64,000 bases of DNA from Spirochaetota bacterium. GTDB lineage: Bacteria; Spirochaetota; UBA4802; UBA5550. The notes below the pieces were generated by a model. It had not been told where the DNA came from and made no database searches. It saw only the letters and a program-made list of their open reading frames with translations. Positions 6,039-47,618 of the stretch are shown piece by piece. The stretch lies in assembly GCA_024276015.1 (NCBI GenBank), contig JAJRXZ010000033.1:121907-185906 (forward strand), read 5' to 3'. Position numbers and translations under genes: made by a program. Numbering within the stretch: the first letter of the stretch is position 1; each line of letters opens with the position of its first letter.

Positions 6039-6743
6039 ATGGAAGGACGCCAGTTCAAAAATTCCATATTTGAGCAATTCGCAAAGATCGCCCATGCCTT
6101 TGCCAGTTCAAAAAGACTTGAAATTATTGATGTACTCTCTCAATGCGAACGGGACGTTGAATCACTGGCACAAGAGGTAAAAATGACCACTGCCAACACC
6201 TCAAGGCATTTGCAGGTTCTGAAAAATGCAAGACTTGTAGAAAACCGTAAAGACGGCGTGAGGGTGATCTACCGAATCGCAGACGATGATGTTATAAACT
6301 GCTGGCAAAGCCTTCAGAGTCTTGCAGAAAACAGACTGGCCGAAATTAAAGAGATCACACGCATCTTTTTAAGTGAAAGAGACATTATGGAAGCCGTATC
6401 CCGTGAAGAGCTGTGGAATCGTATCAAATCCGAAGATGTTATTGTTCTGGACGTACGCCCCAGAATAGAATATGAGAGCGGGCATATTCCAAAGGCCATA
6501 TCAATCCCTCTTCCGAAATTAAAGAACAATATCGAAAAAATACCAAAAGATTGTGAAATTGTCGCTTATTGCCGCGGACCCTACTGCGTTCTGGCAGTTG
6601 AAGCTGTAAGATTTCTGCGCAAAGCAGGTTATAATGCGGCTCTTCTTGAGGACGGCTATCCAGAATGGAAAGAGGCACACCTGCCTGTTGAAAAAGGAAG
6701 CAGTAAAAAACAGGGATTCCCCGCATATAAGAATTTTAAATAA
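6039..6743 (+). CDS. ArsR/SmtB-family transcriptional regulator fused to a rhodanese domain
   Basis: N-terminal wHTH (AHAFASSKRLEIIDVLSQCERDVESLAQEVKMTTANTSRHLQVLKNARLVENRKDGVRVIYRI); C-terminal rhodanese (VIVLDVRPRIEYESGHIPKAISIPL, active loop AYCRGPYCVLA). Confidence 0.9.
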   Translation: MEGRQFKNSIFEQFAKIAHAFASSKRLEIIDVLSQCERDVESLAQEVKMTTANTSRHLQVLKNARLVENRKDGVRVIYRIADDDVINCWQSLQSLAENRLAEIKEITRIFLSERDIMEAVSREELWNRIKSEDVIVLDVRPRIEYESGHIPKAISIPLPKLKNNIEKIPKDCEIVAYCRGPYCVLAVEAVRFLRKAGYNAALLEDGYPEWKEAHLPVEKGSSKKQGFPAYKNFK

Positions 6744-6786
6744 AAGAAATAATGTAAAAAAATTAAATATTTCAAAGGAGGATAAA

Positions 6787-7071
6787 ATGAGCAAAGATAA
6801 TAAAACTAAAATCACTTTTTATCTCAATGAACCACAAGGGAAAACCTGAAAACATTTTACTGAGATGATGCCCGGTCTGGGTAAAAAATTTCCCGTCGAA
6901 ATTGAAGTAATATCAAAACCAAGAAAAGAATACCAAAGCGATGATTACAAAATCACGGGCATGCCTTCAGCTCCGGCAATTATGATGGACAATAAATTGG
7001 TTGCGACGAAGGATGTTTCATTAGATTTTCTTGAGAAGGTTATTCACAAACATCTCGGTATGGATTCATAA
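6787..7071 (+). CDS. Thioredoxin-fold protein with in-frame UGA at 6847-6849; candidate selenoprotein (or nonsense-disrupted gene)
   Basis: Strong SD caaaggaggataaaATG; 20 codons, then TGA, then same-frame continuation KHFTEMMPGLGKKFPVEIEVISKPRKEYQSDDYKITGMPSAPAIMMDNKLVATKDVSLDFLEKVIHKHLGMDS with Trx-like cis-Pro (GMPSAPA). Confidence 0.6.
6855..6886 (+). promoter_or_regulatory. Candidate bacterial SECIS-like hairpin downstream of the in-frame UGA
   Basis: Two alternatives: CCC(6871-6873)-GGTCT-GGG(6879-6881), loop 24 nt after UGA; or TTTTAC(6855-6860)/GTAAAA(6881-6886) with inner AGA/TCT, loop 16 nt after UGA. Confidence 0.4.
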
Positions 7072-7074
7072 ATA

Positions 7075-7115
7075 TAAGCTGTAGAAGCGGGTTTTAAACC
7101 CGCTTCTACAGCTTA
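7075..7115. repeat. Perfect palindromic element (20-bp arms, 1-nt centre), REP-like
   Basis: TAAGCTGTAGAAGCGGGTTT-T-AAACCCGCTTCTACAGCTTA in a 55-nt intergenic gap. Confidence 0.75.
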
Positions 7116-7126
7116 AATAAATAATT

Positions 7127-7663
7127 ATGGTGAAAAAAATGGAAAAAATACTCTATACTGTAAATTTGGCAATACATATACTTGCTGCTGTCTTCTGCGT
7201 TGCCGCTCCCTTTTATCAATTGCGGTGGGTCAAGCAGCGAAGCAAATTGGGGTATCCGATTATATATCCCTTTGACAGAGCAATGGAGAATGTACTTGGA
7301 TTACAGGTGAGGCTGTGCTTTACTTTTATTACTATTATGATCATTACCGGTTTTGCTTTCCCGCTGATCCACTATGCTTTTCACGGAAAATGGCGGAATG
7401 TTTCATCACTGTCTCTGGTAATTTTTTCTGCCAAAACAGTACTGGCCTTTATTGGACTTGCAATAACGGCTCACGGGATATGGTTTCTCGACCCTGTAAT
7501 TCAGAAGACATTTGCTTCTTTCTCGCCTTCTGAGGAACCTCCTGATGAACTGCTGAACAGGTTCTGGGCTCTCAGAGCAAAAAGAAAAAAATTATGTCAA
7601 TTCTGTTTTGGGTTGGCTTTAACAATTGTAATTATAACCCCTATTCTCAGGTTTTATAAATGA
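7127..7663 (+). CDS. Hypothetical integral membrane protein
   Basis: 178 aa with about 4 hydrophobic segments; overlaps start of the next CDS. Confidence 0.7.
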   Translation: MVKKMEKILYTVNLAIHILAAVFCVAAPFYQLRWVKQRSKLGYPIIYPFDRAMENVLGLQVRLCFTFITIMIITGFAFPLIHYAFHGKWRNVSSLSLVIFSAKTVLAFIGLAITAHGIWFLDPVIQKTFASFSPSEEPPDELLNRFWALRAKRKKLCQFCFGLALTIVIITPILRFYK

Positions 7664-8793
7664 AGGAAACCAAAAAAATAGTTAAACAATGCACGGATTG
7701 CGGTGCCTGTGTTAAAAGATGTTTATTCTTAAGCCATTACTGTGATTCGCCGAAGGAACTGGCAAAGCGCTTTACGCGAAATCCTCTGGAGAATATTGAT
7801 ATACCGTATACATGCTCCCTTTGCGGGTTATGCGAAAAGGTGTGCCCCGAAAACCTGAATCCGGGAGACATGTTCCTTGAGATTCGGCAGAAATTTTTCA
7901 GTACTTCTCAGGGCAAAGCACTTCCCCAAGACTTTGTCTACAATTTTTTGATCACAAAACTGAGAGGCATTAAAAATCATCAGATATTCAGCTCAAGCTC
8001 TTTCTTTACTTTAAGCAAGCTTCCTAAAAATTATTCAGGTGATAACCCGAAGAGTGTTTTCTTCCCCGGATGTTCACTTCCCGCATATTCACCTGATCTG
8101 GTTTTAAAAACATATAAATATTTAATGCAAAAAATCCCCGGCATCGCAATAGTTCTTAACTGCTGCGGAAAGCAGAGCAAAGACATGGGAGATAACGATA
8201 GATTTAATTCCATATTAAACAATACTCTTAAAAAATTCTCTCATCTGGGAATAGAGGAGATAGTTGTTGCCTGTATCAATTGCCATAAAGTATTAAGAGA
8301 GCATAGCCATATTAAACTGAGGACTGTTTATGAAATCATTGCAGAAAAGGGGCTGGATTCATGTTCTCCCGATTCTCCGGATATTTCCGGTTTCAAAGAA
8401 GTTACGATCCATGACTCCTGTCCTGCGAGATACATTCACGATGTTCAACAAGACGTAAGGGCTATTGCATCGGATCTTGGATTTCAATTAATTGAAATGA
8501 AAAATAAAAAGGATTTTACCGAATGCTGCGGAGCAGGCGGATGTGCTCCCTCAGGCAACAGGGCGCTTACCGACAGGCACACAAAAAAACGAACAGACCA
8601 GGCAAAGGGACAACTTGTTTCCTATTGCGCACACTGCCGTGAACATTTCTCGTCCTATAAGCCGTCGCTCCATATTCTTGATCTCTGTTTCGGTACATCC
8701 GACAAAAACCGTATCAGAGTATATCGGGACAGCTGGAAAAACTGGTTAAATAGGTGGTATTTAAAAAAAAGGCTTCAAATAATGAGATTTTAA
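7660..8793 (+). CDS. (Fe-S)-binding protein with CCG domains (HdrD/GlpC-like)
   Basis: Two ferredoxin clusters (CTDCGACVKRC, CSLCGLCEKVCPEN), CCG motifs (NCCGKQ, ECCGAGGCAPSG). Confidence 0.85.
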   Translation: MKETKKIVKQCTDCGACVKRCLFLSHYCDSPKELAKRFTRNPLENIDIPYTCSLCGLCEKVCPENLNPGDMFLEIRQKFFSTSQGKALPQDFVYNFLITKLRGIKNHQIFSSSSFFTLSKLPKNYSGDNPKSVFFPGCSLPAYSPDLVLKTYKYLMQKIPGIAIVLNCCGKQSKDMGDNDRFNSILNNTLKKFSHLGIEEIVVACINCHKVLREHSHIKLRTVYEIIAEKGLDSCSPDSPDISGFKEVTIHDSCPARYIHDVQQDVRAIASDLGFQLIEMKNKKDFTECCGAGGCAPSGNRALTDRHTKKRTDQAKGQLVSYCAHCREHFSSYKPSLHILDLCFGTSDKNRIRVYRDSWKNWLNRWYLKKRLQIMRF

Positions 8794-8855
8794 TTTATCT
8801 TTGATTTATAGTTTGATAAATATCAGAAAGATTGAGACAAGGTTTGGCTATAATT

Positions 8856-9689
8856 ATGGATAAAAAAAAGTATCCTCCTCCTATAATCCGCTCTAAAAGA
8901 TACGATGAGCCGTCGCAGTTCTTGCCTGAAAATATGCTGCGGGAAGCAAGACGTCAAAAAAATATTCCCAACGGACAGATACCGCCCATCTGCATACTTG
9001 ACCCGGACGGGGATATAGTCCGCAATCTACTGAAAGGAGGAGATGCGGAGCCTCACCCCTGCTGGGCTTGTTATCACTCCCAATTATACTGTTTCATAAA
9101 AAGAGGAATAAGGTTCGGCATAATCGGTTGTGCTGTTGGAGCTTCCTATGCGGTACTGCTTGCAGAAGAGCTATTTGCCTCAGGCTGCCGGTTCTTAATA
9201 AGCATAACCTCATCCGGTCAGATAAATGAAACGGAAAAACCTCCCTTCTTTGTTTTGATCGAAAAAGCTTTGAGGGACGAAGGAACCAGTTATCATTATC
9301 TTCTGCCTTCAGATTATTCATATATTGATAAAAAGCTGCTCAGTATGTTTAAAGGCACATTTGATAAACTCGGCTTTAATGTAAAGAGCGGCGCTACATG
9401 GACGACCGATGCCCCCTTCAGAGAAACCAAAACTGCCATTGAATACGCTCGGACACAAGGGATACTGGCAGTTGAAATGGAAGCTGCGGCTCTCTATGCT
9501 TTTGCCAAAGCGCGGGAAAAAGATGTTATCTGTTTTGCCCATGTTACAAATCGGATGGGAACTGTTGAAAACGATTTCGAAAAAGGCGAGGAAGAGGGCA
9601 GTAAAGATGCTCTTGACCTGCTGACATTAACGGCAGAGAGATGGATGGATAAAACCGCCGGGGGAAAAATCCGGGGGCAACTCAAATAG
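8856..9689 (+). CDS. Nucleoside phosphorylase (uridine phosphorylase-like)
   Basis: GAVGASYAVLLAEELFASGCRFLISITSSGQI and AVEMEAAALYAFAKAR; ATG start at 8856 preferred over TTG 8832. Confidence 0.85.
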   Translation: MDKKKYPPPIIRSKRYDEPSQFLPENMLREARRQKNIPNGQIPPICILDPDGDIVRNLLKGGDAEPHPCWACYHSQLYCFIKRGIRFGIIGCAVGASYAVLLAEELFASGCRFLISITSSGQINETEKPPFFVLIEKALRDEGTSYHYLLPSDYSYIDKKLLSMFKGTFDKLGFNVKSGATWTTDAPFRETKTAIEYARTQGILAVEMEAAALYAFAKAREKDVICFAHVTNRMGTVENDFEKGEEEGSKDALDLLTLTAERWMDKTAGGKIRGQLK

Positions 9690-11616: not shown

Positions 11617-13044
11617 TTACCTGCCGCCAAATTTCTTCGGATCACCTTTATATCCAAGTGCTTTCCAGTTGAGCCTTCCTTTTTCGCTATGGCAATCATT
11701 ACAATCAAGAGCTTCCGATTTTGGCGCTACCATATGGTTAATGGGCCACAGCATCTCTGTTTTTATCCATCCGTATGAGCCCGAATAGGGAAGACCTGCC
11801 TGTTTCATGCCTGATCTGAACGATCTATTCCAGTCCCAAGTTTTCCAGAATCCGCCCTTGCCGAAGAGATGAGGGACAATAAGCCTTTTATTTACTTTGT
11901 CATAGGCCTGTATGCCTCTCATTACTTTAAAAGGCATAATTCTTGCTTTAGGATCCTTAATACTTCCATGCTGCCTGTTAAAAACGAATACTTTATTCGG
12001 ATCTTTGATTTTATCTCCTATAATATGAGAATCCTGTTTACCATTGTACCAGAAGTATTCCGGAACAACATTCTTTTCCCACCTGAAAGAGCCTTTTTTC
12101 TTATGCCATGTGAGCTTGCCATATTTATCTTTGGTCATTTTCCTGTTTTCTCCGGCTGTTGACCAGTCCCACCACATTTTTGTAGGCTGCGCCCTTGCAA
12201 ATTCCGGTATATGACAGGTCTGACATGCAACAGATGACAAGTGTTTGTTTAAAGTATCATTTTCATGTACCTTATCCTTGTGACAATCAGTGCACCCTAA
12301 ATGATTTGCTCCCAGAGCAAGAGAGGCGTGAAGAGCCCCCATAATATTATGGCTTTCAGATTTATGACACTTTGTACATGAAAAATTCATTCCTCCCATA
12401 TGAACATCCAGATCCTTATCAGGAGATTTTAAACCGGAATCAAGATCCCCATGCTTGACAGCATCGCCGCCCCCGCCATAGAAATGACAGGTACCGCAAT
12501 TATTTCTGGTTGGCTTGCCTACATTTCGGGCAATTTTTTCATAATCCGGTGGAAAGAAGGTCTTCTTTTTCATAAAAACCGTTTTTTTAGTTACCGGATA
12601 ACCTGCTTTAGTTGGAAATTTCTTATATGTCCCTGTCCGGTCATGACAAACAAGGCAATCGATATTCTCTTTTTTTGTAAAATCGAAACTCTTATCCTTC
12701 CAGCCGTATCCGATATGACAGCTTGTACATCTTGGCCAGTTAGAAATAACAGCAACACAATAGTTGTTTAAAATATTTGCTTTCCCAATACGTACTCTTT
12801 TATATCCCCTTTTTACTTTTTTTGAACTAAGCCAGTTCCAGTGCTGGGTTTTGAGGATATCATCCCCCACCTCTTCATGACACTGGAGGCATTTTTTTGT
12901 AACATCCTGCGGCGTTTTAAAGGGCCCTTTAATCTGCGAATGATCCGGAATTTTTTCTACAACGGAACCCTTCATACCGCAGGACACCGATAATATAAAA
13001 GCCGCTATAATAATCAACAATTTTAATAAAACTCTCATAAGCAA
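11617..13044 (-). CDS. Octaheme c-type cytochrome, tetrathionate reductase (OTR) family lipoprotein
   Basis: Eight CXXCH motifs (CLQCH, CTSCH, CLVCH, CGTCH, CTKCH, CTDCH, CQTCH, CNDCH); RCTSCHIGYGWKDKSFDFT...DCLVCHDRTGTYKK signature; lipobox-like ILSVSC. Confidence 0.9.
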   Translation of the reverse strand: MLMRVLLKLLIIIAAFILSVSCGMKGSVVEKIPDHSQIKGPFKTPQDVTKKCLQCHEEVGDDILKTQHWNWLSSKKVKRGYKRVRIGKANILNNYCVAVISNWPRCTSCHIGYGWKDKSFDFTKKENIDCLVCHDRTGTYKKFPTKAGYPVTKKTVFMKKKTFFPPDYEKIARNVGKPTRNNCGTCHFYGGGGDAVKHGDLDSGLKSPDKDLDVHMGGMNFSCTKCHKSESHNIMGALHASLALGANHLGCTDCHKDKVHENDTLNKHLSSVACQTCHIPEFARAQPTKMWWDWSTAGENRKMTKDKYGKLTWHKKKGSFRWEKNVVPEYFWYNGKQDSHIIGDKIKDPNKVFVFNRQHGSIKDPKARIMPFKVMRGIQAYDKVNKRLIVPHLFGKGGFWKTWDWNRSFRSGMKQAGLPYSGSYGWIKTEMLWPINHMVAPKSEALDCNDCHSEKGRLNWKALGYKGDPKKFGGR

Positions 13045-45308: not shown

Positions 45309-47618
45309 TTAAGAAGGCTCTTTCACCTTCTCAGAATTCAGCGGCAGCAGTATCTTTATAATTTTACCCTCCCCCTTCGGCACCGGTTCTTCAATTCTCC
45401 CTTTTAATCTTAACAGAGCCCTTTTTGCAATTGCCAGACCCAGACCGAATCTCTTCTTTGTTGAAAAGAAAGGATGAAATATTTTATTTCTGATCTCCTT
45501 CTCAACAACTCCGCCGGAATCATAAAAATCTATGGCAATATATTCTTTTAAATTACTTCTAATTATTTCAAGTTCATTCTCAAGGAGAGGTTTTCTGCTC
45601 ATTGCCATTGAAATAAATCCATCGGCATTTTCACTGCCTAAGGAGTTAAAATCGTTCATTATATCTTCAAGGAAAAGGTCATGCACTACATTGCGGGGCA
45701 GTTCTACAAAATTATATATCCTGATCACAACTTCCCCGTCATCGCCGGCAGCTTCAATGCTGTTGGTAATCAATTCAAATGCCGCTCTTTCCAGAATATC
45801 GAGATCAATGTCCAGCGTAAAATTATCGGGTAATGCAGATCTGACGCCATATATGGTTTTACTATTTTGCAGTCTCTTTTCAAGATACTTTCTGAAGGAC
45901 TCGGTAATATCCTTTATTGTAACTGTTCTGATGTTAATATCATACTCTTTCTTAAAAAGAAATATAAGTTTTTCCAGTAAAAGGGACATATCGATCATTC
46001 TGGGATAAACAGTGTCAATAACGGGGTCATCTGCATCAACAAGAATTCTCTGAATATTCTGAAATTCATTATTCAGATGACTTGCTATAACGCCTATACC
46101 TTCAATTATAACGGGATCTATGCCCTGCTTTTCAAGGCGGCTGATCGTCAGCGTATCCTTAAGGGCTATTGCAATATAGGTTGACAATGATTCGATTATC
46201 TGCTCATCAATCTCCTGAAATTCTCCTCCAGCCTTATTCAATACCTGTATAACGCCGATCAGATTATTGTCCGGATCAAGGAGGGGGGCTCCGAGAATTG
46301 TTTTTGTTTCATAACCGGTCTGGCGATCTACGGATTTATCAAAATAGGGATGATTGTAGGCATCTTTTACATTTACCGTTTTTCTTAGTTTAAAGATCTG
46401 GCCAGCTATCCCCTTGTCTTCAGGGATCCTGAACTCCTGCGATTCATCGCTTAAACGCGGACCCGAGCTTAACTCCTTTTTTTCACTGTCATGTATAAAA
46501 ACCGTTGCTCTGTCGGCATTTAATGCTTTTGCAGTAAGTTTTCTGATATTATCAAAGAGGGTGCTGATATCCTTTTCATGAATAATATGTTTTGTTATCT
46601 CCATAAGATTTTCAATCGAAAGCAGCCTCTTACGCGTATTGCTCACTGCTTCACCTGTAATTTTTCTCTGAGCCTCAAGTTCTTCCAGCATCTTTTCTTC
46701 CGCTTCGGCATAAATATTTCCGTATCTTTTTTTTGCATAGAGGTTGTAAAAAAGCATTATTAAAGTCTCATAAAGAACAAAAAGGCATAATAACAATTCA
46801 TTATCTGCAAGTTTATTATTGTATCCCAATAAAAGAAAGGGGATTCCCATTATTGCCGATAGAATAAAGACAAGCTTGGAAGAGCAATCAATTCCGGCCC
46901 AGTCTATTTTAAAGGTGAGAGAACCTGAATTTAAGAGAACGCCTTTCTTTATATAAACATCTCTGATATAAAGATCATCCTTAAGTATCTGAATATTATT
47001 TCCCGAAGTGTCAAGCACCTCTTCGGCAACAACTCTATCAAGAATAAAGTATTCCCTCTCCTCTTTTCTGTATTCAACTCCGGTATCGTTAAAAATATCT
47101 TCTATGCTGTTTCCGTAGGCAATAACAGTAACCTCTGCCGGAGGCAGACTCCGGCGCAGGGGCACTGCAGCAACAATACCCTTCAGATATTCGGATAAAT
47201 AATAGTTAATATTAATTTCATCGGAATTGCAGAAGAATGACAACTTTATTGAATTTCTGCCGGCAGGCTCAATGGTCATTTTCAGAGCAGGAAAAAATTC
47301 CATCAGTATCCGATCTATCTCTCCATAGGTTTTATTCACAGAATGTTTCAATCCGACAATGGCGGATATTCCGAATATTTTTTTTTCCGAGAAGTATCTT
47401 CCTGCTCTGTAACAGATATCATATTGATCCGAAATTCTCTGCATATAATGAAGAATATTACTGAATTCTTTATAAGTAATATCTTTTTTGATAAAATCTT
47501 CTCTTTCAATCGAAAATATATTTAAAATATAATCTGCAAGTGCGGGATCGTTGTAGTGATCTGAAATAAAATAATAGAGCTCATTTAATATTACAGGATT
47601 TATCGTTTTTATATCCAT
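45309..47618 (-). CDS. GAF-domain sensor histidine kinase
   Basis: GAF (LNADRATVFIHDSEKKEL...EDKGIAGQIFKLRKTVNVKDAYNHPYF), HATPase (FELITNSIEAAGDDGEVVIRI, FFSTKKRFGLGLAIAKRAL). Confidence 0.85.
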   Translation of the reverse strand: MDIKTINPVILNELYYFISDHYNDPALADYILNIFSIEREDFIKKDITYKEFSNILHYMQRISDQYDICYRAGRYFSEKKIFGISAIVGLKHSVNKTYGEIDRILMEFFPALKMTIEPAGRNSIKLSFFCNSDEININYYLSEYLKGIVAAVPLRRSLPPAEVTVIAYGNSIEDIFNDTGVEYRKEEREYFILDRVVAEEVLDTSGNNIQILKDDLYIRDVYIKKGVLLNSGSLTFKIDWAGIDCSSKLVFILSAIMGIPFLLLGYNNKLADNELLLCLFVLYETLIMLFYNLYAKKRYGNIYAEAEEKMLEELEAQRKITGEAVSNTRKRLLSIENLMEITKHIIHEKDISTLFDNIRKLTAKALNADRATVFIHDSEKKELSSGPRLSDESQEFRIPEDKGIAGQIFKLRKTVNVKDAYNHPYFDKSVDRQTGYETKTILGAPLLDPDNNLIGVIQVLNKAGGEFQEIDEQIIESLSTYIAIALKDTLTISRLEKQGIDPVIIEGIGVIASHLNNEFQNIQRILVDADDPVIDTVYPRMIDMSLLLEKLIFLFKKEYDINIRTVTIKDITESFRKYLEKRLQNSKTIYGVRSALPDNFTLDIDLDILERAAFELITNSIEAAGDDGEVVIRIYNFVELPRNVVHDLFLEDIMNDFNSLGSENADGFISMAMSRKPLLENELEIIRSNLKEYIAIDFYDSGGVVEKEIRNKIFHPFFSTKKRFGLGLAIAKRALLRLKGRIEEPVPKGEGKIIKILLPLNSEKVKEPS

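Follow-up and report, generated by a model that had tools for sequence, protein, structure and literature searches.

The window, as we call the whole 64,000-nucleotide stretch of Spirochaetota DNA analysed here, carries on its forward strand (6787–7071) a gene that we assign with strong confidence to the selenoprotein family TsoC, a reading under which its in-frame UGA (6847–6849) would be decoded as selenocysteine (Sec) and the hairpin at 6869–6883 would be the SECIS. As judged from sequence, comparison with homologues shows that translation continues in frame through the UGA, that the UGA column holds Sec or Cys, that selection acts on the hairpin at the RNA level and that the decoding machinery is present. 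A selenoprotein was what the original prediction had proposed, and it was borne out both by the presence of selA, selB, selC and selD and by an alignment of homologues in which all 85 copies had Cys or Sec, and nothing else, at the UGA column.

A TsoC gene with an in-frame UGA

The gene is one reading frame that follows a Shine-Dalgarno-like AAAGGAGG, read directly from the sequence at 6774–6781 on the forward strand; it runs from an ATG at 6787 through 20 codons to the TGA, its single in-frame UGA and codon 21, and then through 73 sense codons to a TAA at 7069–7071. The Shine-Dalgarno, the ATG and the 20 codons ahead of the TGA had been predicted exactly so, as had the continuation of the frame past it; only the length given for that continuation, 74 codons, was off, as we count 73 residues. 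When the TGA was read as U, the 94-residue product matched the NCBIfam equivalog NF045708 with an E-value of 4e-35 and 119.6 bits (curated cut-off 45 bits, a ratio of 2.6). NF045708 is TsoC, the 'NEPxGxxU motif selenoprotein'; in the passages of a 2026 review that cite Haft and Tolstoy 2025 (PMC13188914), TsoC is given with the motif GxxU and Tso stands for 'three selenoprotein operon'. The family is thus already described, in a publication of 2025, and the gene at 6787–7071 is a further member, sharing with it sequence, motif, Sec position, length and a single UGA, although the window copy is at most 56% identical to the 51 other aligned copies. The motif is present as NEPQGKT-UGA (N14-E-P-Q-G-K-T-U21), with its N, P, G and U invariant across 52 sequences; the invariant residues of that alignment are N14, P16, G18, U21, P60 and P63.

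Among 85 copies, the window's included, the UGA column was TGA in 83, TGC in one and TGT in one, with no other codon. These copies came from a profile search that read through stops and in which a TGA was no condition for a match; the column is therefore not circular with our degenerate DNA pattern search. That earlier search had located TsoC in three assemblies of delta-proteobacteria, of which two are labelled Desulfobulbus and the third Deltaproteobacteria RIFOXYD12. Viewed from a single gene alone, an ordinary thioredoxin-like gene with Cys that had suffered a nonsense mutation or a sequencing error would look identical; we consider this extremely improbable, given that 83 copies from 60+ genomes share the TGA at this column and only two have Cys codons there, that the SECIS covaries, and that the genome has Sec machinery. 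In 60+ other genomes the protein homology extends over both flanks of the UGA, so a frame spanning it is far beyond chance, and a median Ka/Ks of 0.16 beyond the SECIS in related pairs points to purifying selection on the codons downstream of the UGA. Since the UGA is coding, an automatic annotation that halts at codon 20 would lose the protein.

The TGT belongs to a distant form of the TsoC domain with Cys (FVNEPQGGRC; locus L165, 7922–8968), apparently secreted and fused to two rhodanese domains, a fusion that ties TsoC to sulfur transfer. The TGC is in the first TsoC copy of locus L127 (codon at 7880), where Cys has replaced Sec while the neighbouring Sec copy is intact. Locus L132 has a very divergent second TsoC-like frame with a TGA (8159–8398) and a 7-bp hairpin, GGCCGCC-AGGCA-GGCGGCC, near the place of the SECIS. 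Single-protein scans of genome contigs and viral contigs identified no relative, as their patterns back-translate U as Cys and require close identity. Two viral-contig matches to the motif pattern proved on reading to be chance frames, an AAT variant of the pattern gave two more raw viral-contig matches, and a search of plasmids for TsoC identified nothing.

The window protein had no match in Pfam, and 19 of the 52 homologues weakly touched the Pfam family Thioredoxin_3. An AlphaFold2 model built with the 52 homologues (pLDDT 92.6) has the order E-H-E-H-E-E-H, and its Foldseek matches are mostly thioredoxins (E-values near 1e-3, TM about 0.6), in agreement with the predicted thioredoxin fold; the secondary-structure order and the cis-Pro region are those of that fold, with P60 and P63 invariant. 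The UGA had been placed where the second Cys of a CxxC motif would lie, which is reasonable on the model, as U21 is in the first turn of helix 1 and G18 replaces the first Cys. The product would thus be a thioredoxin-fold selenoprotein whose Sec, placed in this first helical turn, is part of a GxxU motif that would be a degenerate CxxC.

A SECIS hairpin conserved across TsoC genes

Two hairpins downstream of the UGA had been put forward as SECIS candidates, CCC-GGUCU-GGG and a UUUUAC/GUAAAA stem, and both exist in the sequence; the first proved conserved and covarying, and the second had no comparative support. The former is UGCCC-GGUCU-GGGUA at 6869–6883, with its loop starting 24–25 nt past the UGA. 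In homologues (80 distinct sequences) it takes the form UGCCC-(A/G)-GGY-U-GGGCR with a loop start about 25 nt past the UGA, and RNAalifold, unaided, recovered the same six pairs from the homologue alignment. Among 41 distinct sequences, 96.3% of cells were paired versus 89.9% in shuffled alignments and the covariation score was 0.318 versus 0.187, neither value being reached by any of 500 shuffles; when the pairing partners were slid, only 34–53% of cells were paired. Pair 23–35 occurs as GC, GU, UA, AU and CG and is paired in 77 of 80 sequences, a level reached in none of 20,000 permutations.

While these shuffle statistics may be inflated by kinship among the sequences, a codon-usage test has the same genes serving as their own control. 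The Pro codon in the stem was CCC in 75 of 77 copies (139 of 501 for other Pro codons within TsoC), the Arg codon in the loop was AGG in 67 of 68 (44 of 337 elsewhere in TsoC), and the Leu codon in the stem was always NTG. Synonymous divergence was 0.38 over codons +1 to +12 and 0.55 downstream. In the close Cys (TGC) copy of L127 one stem pair of the SECIS is lost, which, though a single case, would follow if the hairpin had no role beyond Sec. The locked synonymous codons and the covariation together provide comparative, RNA-level evidence of a SECIS for the TsoC family.

Bacterial SECIS rules call for a loop of 3–9 nt, a stem of 4–16 bp, a G in the first two loop positions and a distance of 16–37 nt from the UGA (PMC13188914). 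The geometry of the 6869–6883 hairpin lies within these rules (5–6 bp stem, loop GGUCU or GUC, 24–25 nt spacing). A further criterion is a minimum free energy of at most -7.5 kcal/mol; the window hairpin alone has -6.2 kcal/mol, and 70 of 83 homologous hairpins are at or below -7.5 kcal/mol. Like the SECIS of E. coli fdhF, whose apical loop we take to be GGUCU, the window hairpin has a G in the first loop positions, whereas most TsoC homologues have a loop of (A)GGU or GGC(U) closed by UGCCC/GGGCR. No RNA family of Rfam was identified within the window.

RNAfold, run on the window alone, prefers the other stem, UUUUAC/GUAAAA with an inner AGAU/GUCU (6855–6886, forward strand), at -11.5 kcal/mol for a 50-nt segment (z = -1.9). 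That this hairpin, with its AGA/UCU inner pairing, is the functional SECIS here in place of CCC-GGUCU-GGG seems to us unlikely: it is the minimum-energy fold in the window, its loop starts with a G, and its stem and 17-nt spacing also fit the bacterial rules (PMC13188914), but it is not conserved, with only 57.6% of cells paired in homologues, at or below the shuffles, and covariation not above them.

Selenocysteine machinery and other readings of the UGA

We searched the window's genome (94.8% complete) for the four Sec genes whose presence the selenoprotein reading calls for and found four of four. A tRNA-Sec gene with anticodon TCA (UCA) is located on contig C35 at 9508–9596 (71.7 bits, with ARAGORN in agreement), and this selC forms one cluster with selA (8132–9217) and selB (6179–7975). 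The selD gene is on contig C45 (366 bits), and as it has a single in-frame TGA of its own, within the motif GSGUASK, SelD is very probably itself a selenoprotein. SelB would bring the Sec-tRNA to the UGA at 6847–6849, directed by the SECIS hairpin at 6869–6883. Elsewhere in the genome, a rhodanese flagged with '2 TGA' (L024) looks like an ordinary gene with a TGA end just before the next gene.

Were UGA reassigned to Trp or Gly genome-wide, the codon would be an ordinary sense codon. Our searches found no evidence favouring reassignment; in the window, 7 of 39 long open frames terminate at UGA, which thus still acts as a normal stop, the standard code leaves long genes open, and the non-TGA copies of TsoC have Cys at the column, never Trp or Gly, all of which makes this reading highly implausible.

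The genome also has a tRNA-Cys gene (anticodon GCA) that is built like tRNA-Sec, on contig C16 at 47192–47281 (L002, 1501–1590, minus strand), which scored 62 bits on the tRNA-Sec model. It is similar to the selC* tRNA-Cys that PMC7609411 describes from Mukai et al. 2017. Because of this tRNA, and because Cys replaces Sec in two homologues, the UGA might be read by something other than Sec, e.g., as Cys via the selC-like tRNA-Cys, giving a Cys protein; we regard this as very unlikely, as the anticodon of that tRNA is GCA rather than UCA and a normal tRNA-Sec(UCA) is present with selA, selB and selD.

The locus and a putative role for TsoC

The usual gene order elsewhere is tsoR-tsoA-(tsoB)-tsoC, with tsoA within 7 kb of tsoC in 51 of 69 loci and tsoB in 27 of 69 (several others being cut by contig ends); locus L100 has the operon in full, with TsoR, TsoA, TsoB and TsoC each above the curated cut-off. 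None of these partners, tsoR, tsoA or tsoB, was identified in the window, and the window's genome had no full tsoB and no match to tsoA, the latter in a search run without a positive control. With the Tso operon tsoR-tsoA-tsoB-tsoC, as outlined where PMC13188914 cites Haft and Tolstoy 2025, the window shares tsoC, an ArsR-type regulator and a rhodanese domain; it differs in having no tsoA or full tsoB and in a regulator that is below the TsoR cut-off and fused to the rhodanese. This genomic setting, without the standard partner genes, is unusual.

Just upstream of tsoC (6039–6743, forward strand) is an ArsR/SmtB winged helix fused to a rhodanese with the motif CRGPYC (Pfam HTH_5 and Rhodanese), which scored 46.8 bits on the TsoR model (cut-off 115) and is likely the regulator and partner of TsoC. 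Downstream, on the same strand, are a four-helix membrane protein with a conserved His (7127–7663), which matched no Pfam or NCBIfam family and shares 70–73% identity with proteins adjacent to TsoC elsewhere, and an HdrD/TfrB-like Fe-S protein (7660–8793) with a 4Fe-4S dicluster domain and two CCG stretches (Pfam Fer4_17 and two CCG matches; a partial match to NF045663 of 247.8 bits), 56–59% identical to its counterparts beside TsoC. A reductase of the HdrDE type consists of a CCG-domain Fe-S subunit and a haem b membrane subunit. The window has a 4Fe-4S dicluster, double-CCG protein beside a membrane protein with a conserved His, a pair that would resemble the membrane-bound heterodisulfide reductase HdrDE, although the membrane protein matches no family.

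Based on these neighbours, we speculate that TsoC would be a one-selenol redox carrier, that the membrane protein and the CCG/4Fe-4S protein would exchange electrons between the quinone pool and TsoC much as a membrane-bound heterodisulfide reductase does, and that the ArsR-rhodanese fusion would take the place of TsoR and of TsoB's rhodanese portion, in which case the substrate is probably a persulfide or other sulfur species. This combination of a selenol carrier, an HdrDE-like membrane module, an ArsR-rhodanese protein and a sulfur species is tentative, with the partner module suggested by gene neighbourhood. The locus offers a concrete candidate electron-transfer partner for the selenoprotein TsoC.

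An explanation that we hold to be about equally possible is that the main role of TsoC lies in selenium or metal(loid) handling, together with its ArsR-type regulator, the membrane and Fe-S genes being unrelated neighbours. TsoR, of the ArsR family, adjoins TsoC in most loci, and tsoC is separated from the membrane-protein gene by a near-perfect 23-nt inverted repeat (7072–7118; 96%, 1-nt spacer), which occurs once in the window and resembles a terminator on the minus strand. Against unrelated neighbours, however, four other genomes (loci L109, L110, L117 and L130) also have the membrane and Fe-S genes close to TsoC, in one case at near-equal spacing, L109 having the TsoC, membrane and Fe-S genes in the window's order at +289/+810 versus +281/+814; at the same time, these are just 4 of 68 other loci, most TsoC loci having tsoA instead.

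Neither the 392 other genomes sampled from the phylum of the window nor 45 others of its order yielded a TsoC, in Sec or Cys form. By the profile search, 66 of 258 genomes from the RIFOXYD12 genome's class have it, and as TsoC is thus in a quarter of that other class's genomes, the window's genome very likely lies in a different phylum. Horizontal gain of the tsoC cassette can fairly be inferred, but the TsoC tree leaves the window copy unplaced, inside no resolved clade. It is conceivable, though somewhat doubtful, that TsoC outside the three-selenoprotein operon would be a mobile selenol partner of a quinone-linked, heterodisulfide reductase-like complex with an ArsR-rhodanese sulfur sensor, in a cassette that moved between phyla.

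The window also encodes, at 11617–13044 on the minus strand, an octaheme cytochrome c of the tetrathionate reductase family (TIGR04315, 621.7 bits) in a frame that is open and free of TGA; a selenoprotein form of this family is given in PMC13188914.
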